64,000 nt of DNA. Origin: Bradyrhizobium ivorense (lineage in GTDB: Bacteria; Pseudomonadota; Alphaproteobacteria; Rhizobiales; Xanthobacteraceae). Below are positions 10,785 through 64,000 of the stretch, piece by piece; the stretch's first letter is position 1, and every line of letters starts with the position of its first letter. The notes under the pieces are model-generated. The model saw only the letters and a list, made by a program, of their open reading frames with translations, did not search any database and was not told the origin of the DNA. The stretch lies in the NCBI RefSeq assembly GCF_900696085.1, contig NZ_CAADFC020000029.1, forward strand, positions 62,001 to 126,000, written 5' to 3'. A program made the translations under genes and the position numbers.

Positions 10785-12338
10785 ATGCTGATGCGGCGCA
10801 GGCTGTCTTTCGCGCTTCTGCTGGGTGTCGGCGTCATGGTTGGCTGGCACACGCGAGCTGTCGCGGCGCCGGACCTGACGCGGCTTGCGCAGGCGCAACC
10901 TGTACCGGCGCCTGCACCTCCTCCAGCGCCCGCTGCAACGCCCGCCCCAGCCGCAACGCCTGCGCCCGCGACCCCGGCTCCGGCCGCGAGCGCGCAGGCC
11001 GCGGCGCCCGAGCCGATCGGCAACGTCGCGACATTGACCGGCACCGCGACCGTCAAGCGCAACAACGCCACTACGCCGCTGCAGATCCGCGACGACATCT
11101 TCGCCAATGACGAGGTCGCGACCGCGGCGACCTCCTCGCTCGGCATCACCTTCAACGACGGCACCACGTTCAACCTGCGGGCCTCGACCCGGATCACGAT
11201 CGACAGCTACGTCTATGAAGACGGCGGCAAGCAGAACAGCGCGCTGTTCGACGTCGTCAGGGGAACCGCGGCGTTCGTCGCCGCTGCCGTCGCCAAGACC
11301 GGCGACATGAAAATCTCGACACCGACCGCGACGCTCGGCATCCGCGGCACCACCGGCCTCGTCGAGGTGCCCGAAGGCGCGACCGCGACCAGCAACAATG
11401 TCGGCATCAAGCTCTATCCCGACGAGGACGGCCATGTCGGGCGCATCGAGGTTCATGACCGCGGCGGCACCTCGCTCGGCGTGCTGACGCGCGCGGCGAG
11501 TGGCTTTGCGATTCGCCCCGGCGTCGGCGGAGTGCGTTTCGCCGCGGTGCCGCTGACGATCTCGCCGCAGCAGATCACCCGCGACCGCGGCTTTGTCCGC
11601 CAGGTGCACACCGCGCAATCGCTCGGCCGCCAGGTGGTGAGCGAGCAGCGCGATTTCCGCCGCGCCAATCCGGACTTCCGCCGCAGCAATCCGGCGGCGC
11701 CCTATCCGAACCGCGGCCAGCCGGTGCAGCCGAACCAGCAGCGGCCGAACGCCCTGCCGGGCCAGAACCGCAACGCACCGGGCCAGCCGGGTCAGCAGAA
11801 CCGTCCGGGTCAGTTGCAGCAGCAGCCCGGCCAGCAAAACCGTCCCGGCCAGCCGCAGCGGCCGGGCACGCCGGGCCGGCAGGGCTTGCAGCAGCCGGGC
11901 ACGCAGCAGCAGGGCGCGGCGGGTCATGCTTTGCCCGGGCAGCCCGGCGGCGCGGCGCTGCCGCGCACGCCCGGTGCGCAGACGCCGGCCGGACAGCGGC
12001 CGACGGGACAACAGCCGGCGGGACAACAGCCGGGACGCCAGGAGCCTGCGCGTCAGGGCGGCTTGCAGCCGGGACGCCCGCAGCAGCAGCCCAGCGTGCA
12101 GCAACCGGGCGGCGTGCGGCAACCTGGCCAACTGCAGGGCCAGCCCGGCTACCCGCGCCAGGGCCTTGCACCGCCGGTGCCGGGACAGATACGGCCGGGC
12201 TTCCAGCAAGCGGTGCCGGGCGGCCGGCTCGTGCCCGGCCTGCTGCGGCCAGGCGCACAGCCGCGCCCCGGCGTCCAGCAGCAGCGGCGACCGCCACCAG
12301 CGCGGCAAGGGAAACCGCCCAAGGACCAGCGTCAGTAG
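10785..12338 (+). CDS. Secreted FecR-domain protein with Gln/Pro/Gly-rich tail
   Basis: A 517-residue exported protein. After a signal peptide and a Pro/Ala linker, residues about 83-185 form a FecR-like domain (GNVATLTGTATVKRNN, then FNLRASTRITIDSYVYEDGG and ATLGIRGTTG). In iron-responsive FecR proteins this fold signals to a sigma factor. Here there is no sigma gene nearby and the protein appears secreted, so it is more like the periplasmic or surface FecR proteins of alphaproteobacteria. From about residue 300 the sequence is a low-complexity Q/P/G/R tail of more than 200 residues. ATG 10785 is preferred; 10767 and 10791 are in-frame alternatives. The gene is alone. Confidence 0.8.
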   Translation: MLMRRRLSFALLLGVGVMVGWHTRAVAAPDLTRLAQAQPVPAPAPPPAPAATPAPAATPAPATPAPAASAQAAAPEPIGNVATLTGTATVKRNNATTPLQIRDDIFANDEVATAATSSLGITFNDGTTFNLRASTRITIDSYVYEDGGKQNSALFDVVRGTAAFVAAAVAKTGDMKISTPTATLGIRGTTGLVEVPEGATATSNNVGIKLYPDEDGHVGRIEVHDRGGTSLGVLTRAASGFAIRPGVGGVRFAAVPLTISPQQITRDRGFVRQVHTAQSLGRQVVSEQRDFRRANPDFRRSNPAAPYPNRGQPVQPNQQRPNALPGQNRNAPGQPGQQNRPGQLQQQPGQQNRPGQPQRPGTPGRQGLQQPGTQQQGAAGHALPGQPGGAALPRTPGAQTPAGQRPTGQQPAGQQPGRQEPARQGGLQPGRPQQQPSVQQPGGVRQPGQLQGQPGYPRQGLAPPVPGQIRPGFQQAVPGGRLVPGLLRPGAQPRPGVQQQRRPPPARQGKPPKDQRQ

Positions 12339-19670: not shown

Positions 19671-20240
19671 TATCCCCCCCTCGCCCCGCTTGCGGGGAGA
19701 GGGTCGGGGTGAGGGGGAGTCTCCCCAAAGCCGGTGACAGACGGACTCGCGGAGAGGCCCCCTCACCCGGATTGCATCTGCGATGCAATCCGGCCTCTCC
19801 CCGCAAGCGGGGCGAGGCGAAGCGGGTGTGCCGGGGACGTGCCCTCGCGATAAGGCTGCGCACAACTCTCTCCCTCCCTCGCCCCGCTCTTGCGGGGAGA
19901 GGGTCGGGGTGAGGGGCTGCGTCCACATGATTGCTGCCGGACGGACTCGCGGAGACTCCCCCTCACCCGGATTGCATCTGACGATGCAATCCGGCCTCTC
20001 CCCGCAAGCGGGGAGAGGCGAAGTGAGTACGCGGCTTAGTTGTCCAAGCCCTGAGACAAGGCACAACTGTCTCCCCCCCTCGCCCCGCTTGCGGGGCCGC
20101 GACGAGCAAAGCTCGCGCTGAGAGGGTTGGGGTGAGGGGGAGTCTCCGCGAAACCGGTGAGAGATGGACTCGCGGAGAGTCCCCCTCACCCGGATTGCAT
20201 CTGCGATGCAATCCGGCCTCTCCCCGCACGCGGGGCGAGG
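19671..20240. repeat. Three copies of a palindromic intergenic repeat (CTCACCC/GGGTGAG type)
   Basis: Three similar units (about 19671-19816, 19877-20015 and 20080-20240). Each opens with CCCCTCGCCCCGCTTGCGGG, AGAGGGT(C/T)GGGGTGAGG, then GACTCGCGGAGA, then CACCCGGATTGCATCTGCGA and TGCAATCCGGCCTCTCCCCG near the far side. The two sides of each unit can pair to form a long hairpin. Only short unique stretches separate the units. Such elements occur throughout Bradyrhizobium and are non-coding. They fill the space between the aminotransferase and the Mpo1-like gene. Confidence 0.8.
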
Positions 20241-59218: not shown

Positions 59219-60394
59219 TTAAGCGGCAATCGGTATGTCCATGGCCGCGCCGCTGCGGTCATAGCGACCGAGACAACGCGGGCCGTGGAAGATGGCGTGG
59301 GTGCCGTCGTGGTATTGCCGGACCTTGACCCGCGCCTTGACGAAATGCGCGCGCAAAGGACTCGCCGGGATCTGCAACTTCAAACGGTTGAACGACACGC
59401 AATTGTCGTTGCCGACCTGCCTCTCCTCCTGCACGCAAAGAATCTCGCCGAGATCGATACCCGCAATCGCGACGAAAGCGCTGCCGTCCTGCTCGGGCTT
59501 GATGGCAAAACGGGCGTTGTGGGCCGGCAGATAGACCTCGCGAATAAATAGATTGGCGGCCTCCACCGTGGCGATCCCGGCCAATGCCAGCTCCTTGGTC
59601 AGCCGGTCTTGCAGCGTCTGAAAGACACGCTCGGAACGGCCCCGCGCTTGCGGCGAATAGGCCGCGATATGTTCGATACCCAGATGCGCCAGCGCCCGGC
59701 CGACCTGGGTCGGCGCCGCGCGATCGACCGCGCCGCCGGCCGTCGCCGTCTGAAAGTAATGCGAGCCCCGATCGGTGTAGAGGCTCAATGGCAGGCCATG
59801 CCGGCCAAACACTTCCTCCAGCGCGCGGAAGGTCGAGGCGGTACCTTCTTCCTCCACCAGGAACGCCGAATAGATTGCGCTCGTCGCGTCATCCAGGGTC
59901 ACGATCAGATCGAGCATCGGCTGCCCTGCGAGCCATTGATGCCGCGATCCGTCCTGATGCAGCAGCATCCCTGGTAACGGCCGGCGCGGACGCTTGCGCC
60001 GGTGTGCGCCGCGGCGGCGGGCCTTCTTCACAAGCCCCTTCGACTGCAGGAAGGTCTTGGTCCAGGTGTAGCTCCAGCTGAAGCGATGATCCTTCACCAG
60101 GTGCTCGTGAAAATGCTTCGCCGTGAAGCCGGCGTAGCGCGTGCGATAAAGCGCTTCCACCTCGTCCGCGCGGTCAATCGGAACCCGTCGGCCGGAAACC
60201 TTGCCGAGCCGACGGTCCAGCAATCCCGCCTCGCCGTCCTCTTCGTAGCGCTGACACCAGCGCCGAAACGTCCGTTCACCGACACCCAACAGCTCCGCTG
60301 CTTCCAACTGGTTGAACTCCAAAGCCTCGTACCGGCCTAAAATGTCCAGAAACTTGATCATGCGCACACCCTGAAGGGCTTCCGTCCGGCGCAT
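59219..60394 (-). CDS. ISNCY-type transposase
   Basis: A 391-residue transposase. The N-terminus has a helix-turn-helix (NQLEAAELLGVGERTFRRWC) and a second DNA-binding part (KHFHEHLVKDHRFSWSYTWT). The catalytic core has Asp in LLHQDGSRHQWL, Asp in LYTDRGSHYF and Glu in RSERVFQTLQDR, the DDE set. It looks intact and may be active. ATG 60394 has GGAGGGGCATGTG before it. Both termini of the element are present. Confidence 0.92.
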   Translation of the reverse strand: MRRTEALQGVRMIKFLDILGRYEALEFNQLEAAELLGVGERTFRRWCQRYEEDGEAGLLDRRLGKVSGRRVPIDRADEVEALYRTRYAGFTAKHFHEHLVKDHRFSWSYTWTKTFLQSKGLVKKARRRGAHRRKRPRRPLPGMLLHQDGSRHQWLAGQPMLDLIVTLDDATSAIYSAFLVEEEGTASTFRALEEVFGRHGLPLSLYTDRGSHYFQTATAGGAVDRAAPTQVGRALAHLGIEHIAAYSPQARGRSERVFQTLQDRLTKELALAGIATVEAANLFIREVYLPAHNARFAIKPEQDGSAFVAIAGIDLGEILCVQEERQVGNDNCVSFNRLKLQIPASPLRAHFVKARVKVRQYHDGTHAIFHGPRCLGRYDRSGAAMDIPIAA

Positions 60395-60423
60395 CACATG
60401 CCCCTCCAAAGGGCACGAAAATT

Positions 60424-61282: not shown

Positions 61283-63130
61283 TTACTCCTCGGGCAGGAT
61301 GCGCACCGCGCCCTTGGCGGCGCTGCTGGCGAACGCCGCGTAGGCCTTCAGCGCGGTCGAGACCGCGCGCTTGCGCGGCGCGGCCGGCTTCCACGCGGCC
61401 TTGCCCTTGGCGAGCATCGCTTCGCGGCGGCGCTTCAGTTCGGCGTCGTCGACCTTGAGGTTGACCTTGCGGTTCGGGATGTCGAACTCGATGATGTCGC
61501 CTTCCTCCACCAGGCCGATCAGGCCGCCTTCGGCGGCTTCCGGCGAGACGTGGCCGATCGACAGGCCCGACGAGCCGCCGGAGAAGCGGCCGTCGGTGAT
61601 CAGCGCGCAGGCCTTTCCGAGCCCCTTCGACTTCAGATAGCTGGTCGGATACAGCATCTCCTGCATGCCGGGGCCGCCGCGCGGTCCTTCGTAGCGGATC
61701 AGCACGACGTCGCCGGCCTTCACCTTGTTGCCGAGAATGGCGTCGACCGATGCGTCCTGGCTCTCGAAGATGCGGGCCGGGCCGGAGAATTTCAAAATGC
61801 TCTCGTCGACGCCGGCGGTCTTCACGATGCAGCCGTCTTCCGCCAGATTGCCGAACAGCACGGCGAGGCCGCCGTCCTTGGAATAGGCGTGCGCGGCGTC
61901 GCGGATGCAGCCCTTGGCGCGGTCGAGATCGACCTCATCGAAGCGGCGATCCTGGCTGAAGGCTTCCTGGGTCGGCACGCCGCCGGGCGCGGCGCGGTAG
62001 AAGCCGCGCACCTTGTCGCTCGTGGTCCGCACCACGTCCCAGCGGTTCAGCGCATCGTCGAGCGTCGCGCTGTGCACGGTCGGGCCGTCGGTGGTGAGCA
62101 GTTTGGCGCGGTCGAGCTCGCCGAGGATCGCCATGATGCCGCCGGCGTGGTGCACGTCCTCCATGTGGACGTCCTGCACCGAGGGCGCGACCTTGCACAG
62201 CACCGGCACCTTGCGCGAGAGACGGTCGATGTCGGCCATCGTGAACGGCACCTCGCCCTCGCGCGCGGCGGCGAGCAGATGCAGTACAGTGTTGGTCGAA
62301 CCGCCCATCGCGATGTCGAGCGTCATCGCGTTCTCGAACGACTTGAAGCTCGCGATATTGCGCGGCAGCACCTTGGCGTCGTCCTGCTCGTAGTAGCGGC
62401 GGGCGAGGTCGACGATCAGGTGGCCGGCCTCGACGAACAGGCTCTTGCGGTCGGCATGGGTCGCCAGCACCGAGCCGTTGCCGGGCAGCGCAAGCCCGAG
62501 CGCCTCGGTCAGGCAGTTCATTGAATTCGCGGTGAACATGCCGGAGCAGGAGCCGCAGGTCGGGCAGGCCGAGCGCTCGATCACTTCGACCTCTTCGTCG
62601 GTCACGTTGGAATCCGCCGCCGCCACCATGGCGTCGATCAAGTCGACCGCGCGCTTCTTGCCCTTGAGCTGGATCTTGCCCGACTCCATCGGGCCGCCCG
62701 AGACGAACACGGTCGGGATGTTGAGGCGCAAGGTCGCCATCAGCATGCCGGGGGTGATCTTGTCGCAGTTGGAGATGCAGACCATCGCGTCGGCGCAATG
62801 CGCATTGACCATGTATTCGACGCTGTCGGCGATCAATTCGCGCGAGGGCAGGCTGTAGAGCATGCCGTCATGACCCATCGCGATGCCGTCGTCGACCGCG
62901 ATGGTGTTGAACTCCTTCGCCACGCCGCCGGCCTTCTCGATCTCGCGCGCCACGAGCTGACCGAGATTCTGCAGATGGACGTGGCCGGGCACGAACTGCG
63001 TGAAGGAATTGACCACCGCGATGATCGGCTTGCCAAAATCCTCGTTCTTCATGCCGGTGGCGCGCCAGAGGCCGCGAGCACCCGCCATGTTGCGGCCGTG
63101 CGTGGTGGTGCGGGAGCGATAGGCGGGCAT
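61283..63130 (-). CDS. ilvD: Dihydroxy-acid dehydratase
   Basis: A 615-residue Fe-S dehydratase of the branched-chain amino acid pathway. The ligand cysteines are in [11 protein letters not shown] and [19 protein letters not shown], with the catalytic region [20 protein letters not shown] near the end. Start ATG 63130 gives the normal N-terminus [20 protein letters not shown]; an upstream frame would add 30 unlikely residues. No leader peptide or T-box was seen. It appears to stand alone. Confidence 0.96.
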
Positions 63131-63763
63131 GGTAAATCCTTGGGGTCTGTGCGCTTTTTTAAGGGAGGCGGCGTTCCTTATGCCCGCCCGGGGCCGGGGA
63201 TTCAAGCGTGGAACCGACATGGCTGAGCCCCGCTCCGCATCCCGCCCACGCCGTCATCGCCCGGCCTGTGCGCAATTGCGCACATGGACCGGGCGATCCA
63301 GTACGCCGTGGCCCATCAGCTCAACAACCACCGTCTCTGGAATACTGGATCACCCGCTTTCGCGGGTGATGACACCGAACTGGCTGGTTGAAATGTGAAT
63401 CAGACCAGCACCAACCCCGTCATCCTGAGAGAATGTGAAGCTTTGCCCTCATCTACCGTTGTCATCGCCCGGCTTGACCGGGCGATCCAGTACGCCGCGG
63501 CCTTTCGCTTCTATCACCGGCGTCTCTGGAATACTGGATCACCCGGTCAAGCCGGGTGATGACACCGAGCAAGCTGAGCAAACCCTCCCCGTCATCCTGA
63601 GGTGCGAGCCTTGCAGCGCAATGCGCTGCGGGGCGAGCCTCGAAGGATGAATCGGCCCGGCTGGTGGCCGTCGATCCTTCGAGGCTCGCCGAAGAGGCTC
63701 GCACCTCAGGATGACGGGGCAGCGCATGCCCAGGGACGACGGTGGAGGAAGAGCCGGCGCCCC
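63131..63763. other. Repeat-rich intergenic region
   Basis: About 630 bases between the divergent ilvD gene and the flavoprotein gene. It contains repeats A (63253-63373 and 63461-63563) and B (63587-63719), plus a short partial B at 63417. No gene was seen. The ilvD promoter should be in 63131-63250. Confidence 0.6.
63253..63719. repeat. Cluster of two A and one B palindromic repeats
   Basis: Two A units, each opening GTCATCGCCCGGC and closing GGGTGATGAC, are followed by a B unit with CCCCGTCATCCTGAGGTGCG and CGCACCTCAGGATGACGGGG. All three are near-palindromic and related to the copies in the thi operon and at 51858-52127. Confidence 0.85.
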
Positions 63764-63793
63764 TTGACAATTATTTTAAGTATAAAATAATAT
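63764..63793 (+). promoter_or_regulatory. Promoter with perfect 9+9 inverted repeat operator
   Basis: TTGACA (63764-63769) and TAATAT (63788-63793) are 18 bases apart and look like a promoter. Between and over them is ATTATTTTA (63770-63778), a 4-base spacer, and TAAAATAAT (63783-63791), a perfect inverted repeat in otherwise GC-rich DNA. The size and position fit an operator for a dimeric repressor, such as a MarR-family protein, controlling the flavoprotein gene. Confidence 0.7.
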
Positions 63794-63848: not shown

Positions 63849-64000
63849 ATGCGCATCGTTTGCATTGGAGGCGGGCCGGCCGGGCTCTATTTCGGCATCC
63901 TGATGAAGATGCTGGACCCCGCGCATCAGATCTCCGTGGTCGAGCGCAACCGGCCCTACGACACGTTCGGGTTCGGCGTGGTGTTTTCCGATGCCACCAT
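63849..64000 (+). CDS. FAD-dependent hydroxylase, salicylyl-CoA 5-hydroxylase-like (partial)
   Basis: The first 50 codons of a flavoprotein cut by the right edge: [20 protein letters not shown], then [20 protein letters not shown] and [10 protein letters not shown]. The [11 protein letters not shown] site and the [14 protein letters not shown] continuation match the bifunctional salicylyl-CoA 5-hydroxylase and anthraniloyl-CoA monooxygenase group. These enzymes act in CoA-linked breakdown of aromatic acids. GGGAGAGCGCC precedes the ATG. The rest of the pathway should lie to the right. Confidence 0.75.

Follow-up and report, generated by a model that had tools for sequence, protein, structure and literature searches.

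A conserved AT-rich dyad on an aryl-CoA hydroxylase promoter of Bradyrhizobium ivorense as a probable MarR operator of tryptophan and anthranilate catabolism

A perfect AT-rich inverted repeat lies on the promoter of a gene for a bifunctional aryl-CoA hydroxylase/oxidoreductase, at the right end of the 64,000-nucleotide stretch of DNA analysed here (the window, G000:C29:62001-126000). This repeat is very probably the operator of the MarR repressor encoded in the same cluster and, together with similar sites elsewhere in the genome, would define a regulon of tryptophan/anthranilate catabolism, binding and repression being predicted from sequence. As judged from its position, the putative operator is a dyad overlapping the promoter of the gene that it would control, as in the MarR family. 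The features at this end of the window are as follows:

63764-63769, + strand: -35 hexamer TTGACA (promoter scan), abutting the operator without a gap
63770-63791, no strand: proposed MarR operator (sequence, weight matrix and conservation), a 22-bp dyad ATTATTTTA-AGTA-TAAAATAAT, with the left arm ATTATTTTA at 63770-63778, AGTA at 63779-63782, the right arm TAAAATAAT at 63783-63791, and AT following at 63792-63793
63786-63793, + strand: -10 element, overlapping the right arm of the operator, either AATAAT (63786-63791) or TAATAT (63788-63793)
63849-64000, + strand: start of the gene for the bifunctional aryl-CoA hydroxylase/oxidoreductase (770 aa), 57 nt after the repeat

The sequence-only reading had described a perfect AT-rich inverted repeat with four bases between its arms, placed at a TTGACA hexamer, and the repeat is found at exactly those coordinates. 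The -10 element that it had named, TAATAT, is present at a spacing of 18 nt and scores 10/12 in the promoter scan, but AATAAT at a spacing of 16 nt scores higher (11/12); shuffles of the 801-nt region gave 0.2 promoter matches. Likewise, the four-base spacer is real in this sequence, but its AGTA is mostly AGCT or AACT in relatives (consensus TAYTTTAAGCTTAAAATA), which indicates that the element is one continuous dyad rather than two arms and a spacer. In the window, whose GC content is 65.5%, the repeat pattern with at most three mismatches has a single occurrence (none in 100 shuffles), and among the 45 perfect 9-nt inverted repeats with a spacer of 0-8 nt only the operator has arms with two G/C or fewer. 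It is also the sole place in the window where 22 nt include at most one G/C (four overlapping frames). With a weight matrix whose training omitted this locus but included ten other loci with an identical site, the operator scored 41.0 and the rest of the window 3.6 at most.

The hydroxylase gene has 152 bases in the window and continues for 2.2 kb beyond it (L003:849-3161, corresponding to G000:C29:125849-128161), where L003 is the stretch to the right (C29:125001-142000). The sequence-only reading had suggested looking there for a MarR gene with a similar site, and both were found in a cluster that encodes, from left to right:

L003, behind the hydroxylase gene, + strand: SDR, crotonase and RidA genes
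L003:6046-7302, + strand: FAD monooxygenase gene
L003, before the MarR gene, - strand: cupin gene, then a gene for an ABC-transporter binding protein
C29:134217 and C29:134298 (starts): two weak operators (scores 19.3 and 19.0) upstream of the MarR gene and of the divergently transcribed transporter-protein gene
C29:134363-134857 (L003:9363-9857), + strand: MarR gene, 8.6 kb to the right of the operator
C29:134909-134932 (L003:9909-9932): second operator AATTATTTTAAGTATAAAATGATT, between the MarR gene (51 nt to its left) and the ligase gene (103 nt to its right)
C29:135036-136679 (L003:10036-11679), + strand: acyl-CoA ligase gene

Queried with the last 301 bases of the window, the genome gave a second DNA match of 86% over 41 nt, 9.1 kb to the right. 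The motif TTNTTTNAAGNNNAAAA occurs three times in the 9.4-Mb genome, always in this cluster, having been derived from those same three sites (the two strong ones and the weaker one before the MarR gene), and its reversed control does not occur. The strict repeat with at most three mismatches is found in three places in the genome, two of which are in this cluster. The weak sites at the MarR gene have counterparts in related Bradyrhizobium loci. Operators at the gene of the regulator itself are frequent, but not universal, in the MarR family; with two weak sites, autoregulation is not firm here.

The gene downstream of the operator had been taken for an aromatic-CoA hydroxylase, and family profiles agree, adding that the enzyme is fused to an old-yellow-enzyme domain. 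Indeed, the protein combines an FAD monooxygenase domain (PF01494, 39.1 bits, cut-off 22) with an old-yellow-enzyme domain (PF00724, 221.7 bits, cut-off 27) and matches NCBIfam PRK08255, named 'bifunctional salicylyl-CoA 5-hydroxylase/oxidoreductase' (1356 bits, cut-off 1078). The enzyme of the anthranilate pathway on the Arthrobacter plasmid pAL1 receives the same name (1228 bits), so that the label is not to be taken literally, and an activity as salicylyl-CoA 5-hydroxylase was set aside. The hydroxylase shares 50% identity over 771 columns with the pAL1 enzyme, itself assigned by homology, and the ligase shares 53% identity over 536 columns with the ligase encoded beside the pAL1 hydroxylase. 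An anthranilate-CoA ligase activity was measured for pAL1, according to the excerpted text of PMC3534580; that the AMP-binding gene adjoining the pAL1 hydroxylase is the ligase whose activity was measured is our own reading of two accounts. By homology, the hydroxylase is thus named here a homologue of 2-aminobenzoyl-CoA monooxygenase/reductase. The likeness to the pAL1 pathway extends to RidA and cupin genes nearby, whereas the regulators encoded beside the pAL1 pathway genes belong to the PaaX family and not to the MarR family; no site of the present kind was found in the 45 of 113 kb of pAL1 examined (best score 11.5).

Beyond the cluster, a profile built without the sites of this genome, with which 150 of 227 first-look candidates were scored, gave four places at E <=10 (best E 0.02 to 0.64), namely before the hydroxylase gene, before the ligase gene, before the kynurenine (kyn) operon and, on contig C32, between two ligase genes. 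The C32 site at 19843 (L148), between the two divergent ligase genes, scores 32.5, and a pair of sites at 12338 and 12542, 204 nt apart (29.0 and 28.3), precedes genes that include a thiolase-like one. These sites suggest that the regulon, or the regulon of a paralogue, extends further. The C32 sites accompany a further CoA-type catabolic cluster with two divergent ligases, a thiolase-like gene and a transporter; in Bradyrhizobium cajani (L086), a comparable pair (192 nt apart) is found 8 kb upstream of a 75%-type hydroxylase gene.

The operator also precedes the kyn operon. In locus L092, the site precedes an alpha/beta hydrolase gene and a tryptophan 2,3-dioxygenase gene (TIGR03036, 435.9 bits, cut-off 390.7). 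The corresponding operon of the own genome, on contig C18, encodes the hydrolase, the dioxygenase (432.9 bits) and a kynureninase (TIGR01814, 276.8 bits, cut-off 246.4), with an operator 67 nt before its first gene (score 28.9). A tryptophan dioxygenase was found in 89 of 117 genomes of the genus, and a site with at most 3 mismatches in 17 positions lies 902-952 nt before its gene in all 30 best-match loci, in the own locus and in four others; these 30 are the best among the 89 genomes, are dominated by close relatives and exclude the dioxygenases of 64-70% identity. Inside the dioxygenase genes, the best match has 7-9 mismatches. In 14 genomes, a dioxygenase of 64-67% identity is encoded within about 12 kb of the hydroxylase. 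The genes for both stretches of the route, from tryptophan down to anthranilate and on to CoA-bound products, thus have the operator in common and in part lie together.

The hydrolase of the kyn operon belongs to family NF058665 (NCBI name hormone-sensitive lipase), and the hydrolase before the dioxygenase was identified by family search in L092 and in the own genome only. Of the 20 own-group loci with both a MarR and a ligase gene, 15 have a related hydrolase gene between the two (e.g. L012:18436-19251), this NF058665 homologue reaching 212 bits, below the cut-off of 320; the own cluster is without it, and the own kyn operon has one instead. The best solved relatives of this homologue from the MarR-ligase gap are a putative esterase (2pbl, E 7e-42), a lipase, and then a kynurenine formamidase (4e11, E 2.3e-21). 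On the basis of gene neighbourhood, we infer that these hydrolases are formamidases.

According to the proposed mechanism, a MarR dimer would, without inducer, occupy the 22-bp dyad, which fills the gap between the -35 and -10 elements and includes the latter, so that RNA polymerase would be kept off the promoter of the hydroxylase operon by occlusion. The same MarR protein would act on like sites before the CoA-ligase gene and before the kyn operon (formamidase-like hydrolase, tryptophan 2,3-dioxygenase and kynureninase), and perhaps also on the two weaker sites lying between its own gene and the divergent gene for the transporter protein. During catabolism of tryptophan, kynurenine or anthranilate, an intermediate would bind the repressor and the promoters would be freed together.

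Because the promoters of one route share an operator, the signal is expected to be made by that route. In the excerpted texts of PMC4737184 and PMC5487221, CouR (Rhodococcus jostii RHA1; Rhodopseudomonas palustris) and FerC (Sphingobium SYK-6) are MarR repressors of CoA-ester aromatic catabolism, and both answer to CoA esters, which makes anthraniloyl-CoA (2-aminobenzoyl-CoA) the first candidate; we give it roughly an even chance of being the inducer. The presence of the kyn operon, of an anthranilate-CoA-ligase homologue and of a 2-aminobenzoyl-CoA monooxygenase/reductase homologue in the regulon makes an aryl-CoA ligand, as proposed in the sequence-only reading, more plausible and more specific. 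With the same operator and repressor, the inducer could instead be anthranilate or kynurenine as the free acid, or a different aryl-CoA such as salicylyl- or benzoyl-CoA, a group of possibilities that together fall somewhat short of an even chance within the preferred reading of the operator. Indeed, free aromatic acids are ligands of other MarR proteins, protocatechuate being bound by PcaV (excerpted text of PMC5487221), the NCBI name of the enzyme refers to salicylyl-CoA, and some sites are at loci with no clear tie to anthranilate. However, FerC and CouR answer to CoA esters, and the pAL1 enzyme carries the identical label although its pathway is that of anthranilate; an operator common to the kyn operon and to the anthranilate-CoA-ligase homologue favours a signal derived from anthranilate over one derived from salicylate or benzoate.

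If anthraniloyl-CoA is the inducer, the regulator and its operator would lend themselves readily to use as a biosensor, and one could test directly what becomes of tryptophan- or auxin-derived anthranilate in root bacteria. A bolder and rather unlikely extension is that a single MarR regulon acts as an anthraniloyl-CoA-sensing hub in root-associated Hyphomicrobiales, releasing together all routes to anthraniloyl-CoA: (i) from tryptophan via kynurenine, (ii) from free anthranilate via the ligase, and (iii) from auxin via isatinate, the last through an IorA-like oxidoreductase that shares the operator in L040 (Rhizobium) and L061 (Ochrobactrum). In such a hub, the last shared intermediate, and not each substrate, would gate the turnover of tryptophan and auxin.

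The system resembles that of CouR and FerC in its MarR gene, in its CoA-ester aromatic catabolism and in having inverted-repeat boxes on promoters, and RHA1 CouR likewise uses one type of box before several transcription units of one pathway (PMC4737184 and PMC5487221, in excerpt). It differs in that the CouR box, cATTGA-N5-TCAATg in the same excerpts, lies over the -35 element, whereas here a continuous TTTAAGCTTAAA-type dyad lies over the spacer and the -10 element, and in that CouR serves a hydroxycinnamate pathway and not anthranilate/tryptophan. Arg36 and Arg38 of CouR hold the CoA phosphates (excerpted text of PMC4737184); the corresponding region reads VTLPRFD here, that is Thr, then Pro and Arg, when aligned by eye on the SlyA/OhrR positions given in that excerpt. 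With no obvious counterparts of Arg36/Arg38 by eye, a CouR-type masking of DNA-binding arginines cannot be assumed.

The auxin-degradation repressors IadR (MarR_73) and IacR are also MarR proteins, but their ligand is indole-3-acetate. In the excerpted text of PMC9613470, MarR_73 binds a 24-bp site between its own and the neighbouring gene and is released by a pathway compound, and the iad route ends at anthranilate. The present MarR protein is nearer to 3boq, a MarR structure with no named function (E 1.8e-21), than to 7kfo (E 2.6e-6), which is a Variovorax regulator according to the excerpt of PMC11630574. The present cluster does not look like an iac or iad locus, as no ring-hydroxylating dioxygenase was detected among the nine of its proteins that were scanned. 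In the own genome, contig C33 encodes a dioxygenase pair (Pfam Rieske, Ring_hydroxyl_A and Ring_hydroxyl_B), followed by an SDR gene and a second MarR gene (C33:20947), with an IorA-like gene about 5 kb from both; this is possibly its auxin-degradation locus. Two weak sites (C33:13379-13556, or L157:1280-1457; scores 14.3 and 19.5) sit between the IorA-like gene and a divergent acyl-CoA dehydrogenase gene. A place for the operator in the auxin regulon of this genome was considered and rejected, the C33 locus carrying only these weak sites.

A description of this operator or regulator was not found in the open-licence literature, consulted in excerpt (subscription literature and regulon databases lay outside the search), nor did three motif strings occur there. 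MarR operators with a catabolic repressor are a known type of system, but this member appears to be new, as do the regulon and the probable signal. With them, the aerobic CoA route by which rhizobia break down anthranilate would gain its operator, regulator and regulon, as well as a link to tryptophan catabolism.

The regulator is recognised by the Pfam families MarR_2 (46.0 bits, cut-off 27) and MarR (41.0 bits, cut-off 24.6). Divergent MarR and hydroxylase genes with the site between them are found in L028, L044, L057, L068-L070, L076 and L086, and the site between the two genes on a Rhizobium leguminosarum plasmid scores 42.6. Where the MarR gene has another place, as in these loci, the site stays with the promoter. 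MarR proteins from outside the own genus group, with an overall identity of 42-53%, agree at 62-85% in the recognition helix (around MVSNGNVTGLVERL) and at 32-44% in the C-terminal part, whereas four unrelated MarR proteins of the own genome share 8-15% of the helix, a contrast that is partly by construction as the comparison set was picked by similarity. In Bradyrhizobium paralogues (47-50%) encoded beside such sites, the helix is 54% identical, no better than the remaining protein.

A paralogue, such as the C33 MarR protein, or several cross-talking paralogues might occupy the site instead of the cluster's own regulator, but this is improbable. In favour of such binding, MarR proteins of 42-53% identity adjoin the same kind of site in other loci, and the C33 MarR, which might also bind some of the sites, belongs to the same subfamily (41% overall), has a similar recognition helix (62%) and has weak sites at its locus. 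However, two strong sites flank genes of the very cluster that holds this MarR gene, whereas the weight matrix found no strong site in C33:12100-26000, and the own-group locus L025, with no MarR homologue in the 22 kb covered, has no site either.

The proposal of an operator had depended on conservation of the site, and this is now seen widely. Before the hydroxylase gene, 81 loci were compared, i.e. the own locus and the best 80 of at least 585 confirmed hydroxylase loci from 84,980 species genomes scanned; from the organism names, we take all of them to belong to the Hyphomicrobiales. A site with at most 5 mismatches in the 18 arm positions is present within 350 nt before the gene in 73 of the 81 loci, and three loci have 6 or 7 mismatches; random 350-nt stretches of the same loci gave a site with at most 5 mismatches in 16 of 405 cases, true sites included. 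No site was found before the hydroxylase gene in L025, L029, L030, L031 and L033 (best 9 mismatches). L029-L031 encode a MarR protein of 68-69% identity within the operon, yet have no recognisable site before the hydroxylase gene, and their regulator may use another site.

An alignment of 21 own-group loci shows 95% conservation of the site, compared with 80% for the ten preceding bases and 47% and 54% for the flanks. Forms of the element seen in other families (Rhizobium, Ochrobactrum, Kaistia, Roseibium and others) include TATATTTTAAGCTTAAAATAAT and TATATTTTAAACTTAAAATAAT. Among the 22 own-group loci, TTGAC starts 6 nt (17 loci) or 8 nt (4 loci) before the site, L025 having none, while among the 55 other site-bearing loci it lies 20-23 nt upstream in 33, 7 nt upstream in one and nowhere within 40 nt in 21. 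The -35 box is thus shifted by about 15 nt between the two geometries and the dyad is kept: in the own group the operator coincides with the spacer and the -10 element, and in the other geometry it begins at the -10 element. A dyad that persists while the position of the -35 box changes is not readily accounted for by anything but a protein-binding site, and the shifted box around a fixed operator offers a clean natural example of promoter rearrangement at a repressor site.

Across the genus, TTATTTTAAGNNTAAAATA with at most one mismatch has matches in 90 of 117 genomes (one per species), and the reversed control in 0 of 117. Among the matches listed, there are 109 distinct sites in 77 genomes. 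Of these sites, 76 are located 17-120 nt (median 34) before a hydroxylase gene, and 31 adjoin a MarR gene, standing either upstream of it or as far as 1.1 kb downstream; as 11 sites count in both groups, 96 of the 109 are at one or the other gene and 13 at neither. These counts draw on 117 hydroxylase matches, with partial matches and 44-48% matches to the second domain only omitted, and on 40 MarR matches, those on site-bearing contigs, an omission of others that can only lower the count. The hydroxylases behind the listed sites fall mostly into three subfamilies (90-100%, 74-75% and 52-55% identity). Of the 13 remaining sites, five precede the kyn operon, two an acyl-CoA dehydrogenase gene, two a hydroxylase gene cut by the contig end and one a cupin gene, while two lie within the same cluster where it lacks the hydroxylase and one adjoins a ligase gene of 27% identity; those at the cupin and ligase genes are weak support for the regulon. 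Loci with the operator before an acyl-CoA dehydrogenase gene are L090, L096, L097 and L098, the gene being divergent in L090 and L096 from a MarR paralogue of 48-50% identity, and a homologous gene follows the hydroxylase gene within its operon in L040 (Rhizobium) and L061 (Ochrobactrum).

In the 81 loci (1.70 Mb), the weight matrix gave 170 hits with a score of at least 20, and none in three shuffles, which preserve base content per 200-nt piece but not dinucleotides. These comprise 100 hits before hydroxylase genes, 44 before ligase, MarR or transporter genes and 26 elsewhere; because hydroxylase and kyn sites, except those of the own genome, served to train the matrix, its hydroxylase hits are partly by construction, and those at ligase, MarR and transporter genes are not. 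Variants of one Rhizobium site account for 16 of the 26 hits elsewhere, and in L040, the one locus opened, this site adjoins a gene related to indolepyruvate ferredoxin oxidoreductase (below the curated cut-off). No clear tie to anthranilate is seen for the C32 sites of the own genome, nor for sites that in relatives accompany SDR/MoaF-like, FAD-enzyme or cupin genes. Genes were called by a codon-position score together with tblastn, the longest ORF being often in the wrong frame in such GC-rich DNA.

These data bear on an alternative in which no regulator is involved and the repeat is simply part of an AT-rich promoter or a palindrome arisen by chance, as its coincidence with a near-consensus promoter, whose -10 element is AT-rich anyway, might suggest. 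This is very improbable, since the dyad persists despite a shifted -35 box (TTGAC starting 6-8 nt before it in 21 loci of the own group and 20-23 nt before it in 33 of the 55 others with a site), precedes ligase and kyn genes with no adjacent TTGACA, and is matched 170 times in real loci against 0 in three 1.7-Mb shuffles; the shuffles, the uniqueness in the window and the matrix counts led to its rejection. A transcription terminator or RNA structure, to which a perfect inverted repeat might also belong, has a negligible probability and was likewise rejected, because G-C pairs are lacking in the stem, the scan for terminators gave no hit there and the large dihydroxy-acid dehydratase gene on its left (61283-63220) lies on the - strand.

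Elsewhere in the window, the gap between this - strand dehydratase gene and the promoter is filled, at 63253-63719, by inverted repeats (arms of up to 36 nt, one of them perfect with 25 nt) and a duplicated 70-nt unit; intergenic repeat elements of this kind are common in such genomes. Furthermore, a 396-aa ORF on the - strand (59219-60409), with helix-turn-helix domains and a sub-threshold match to the integrase core rve (23.3 bits, cut-off 32.6), looks like an insertion-sequence transposase.
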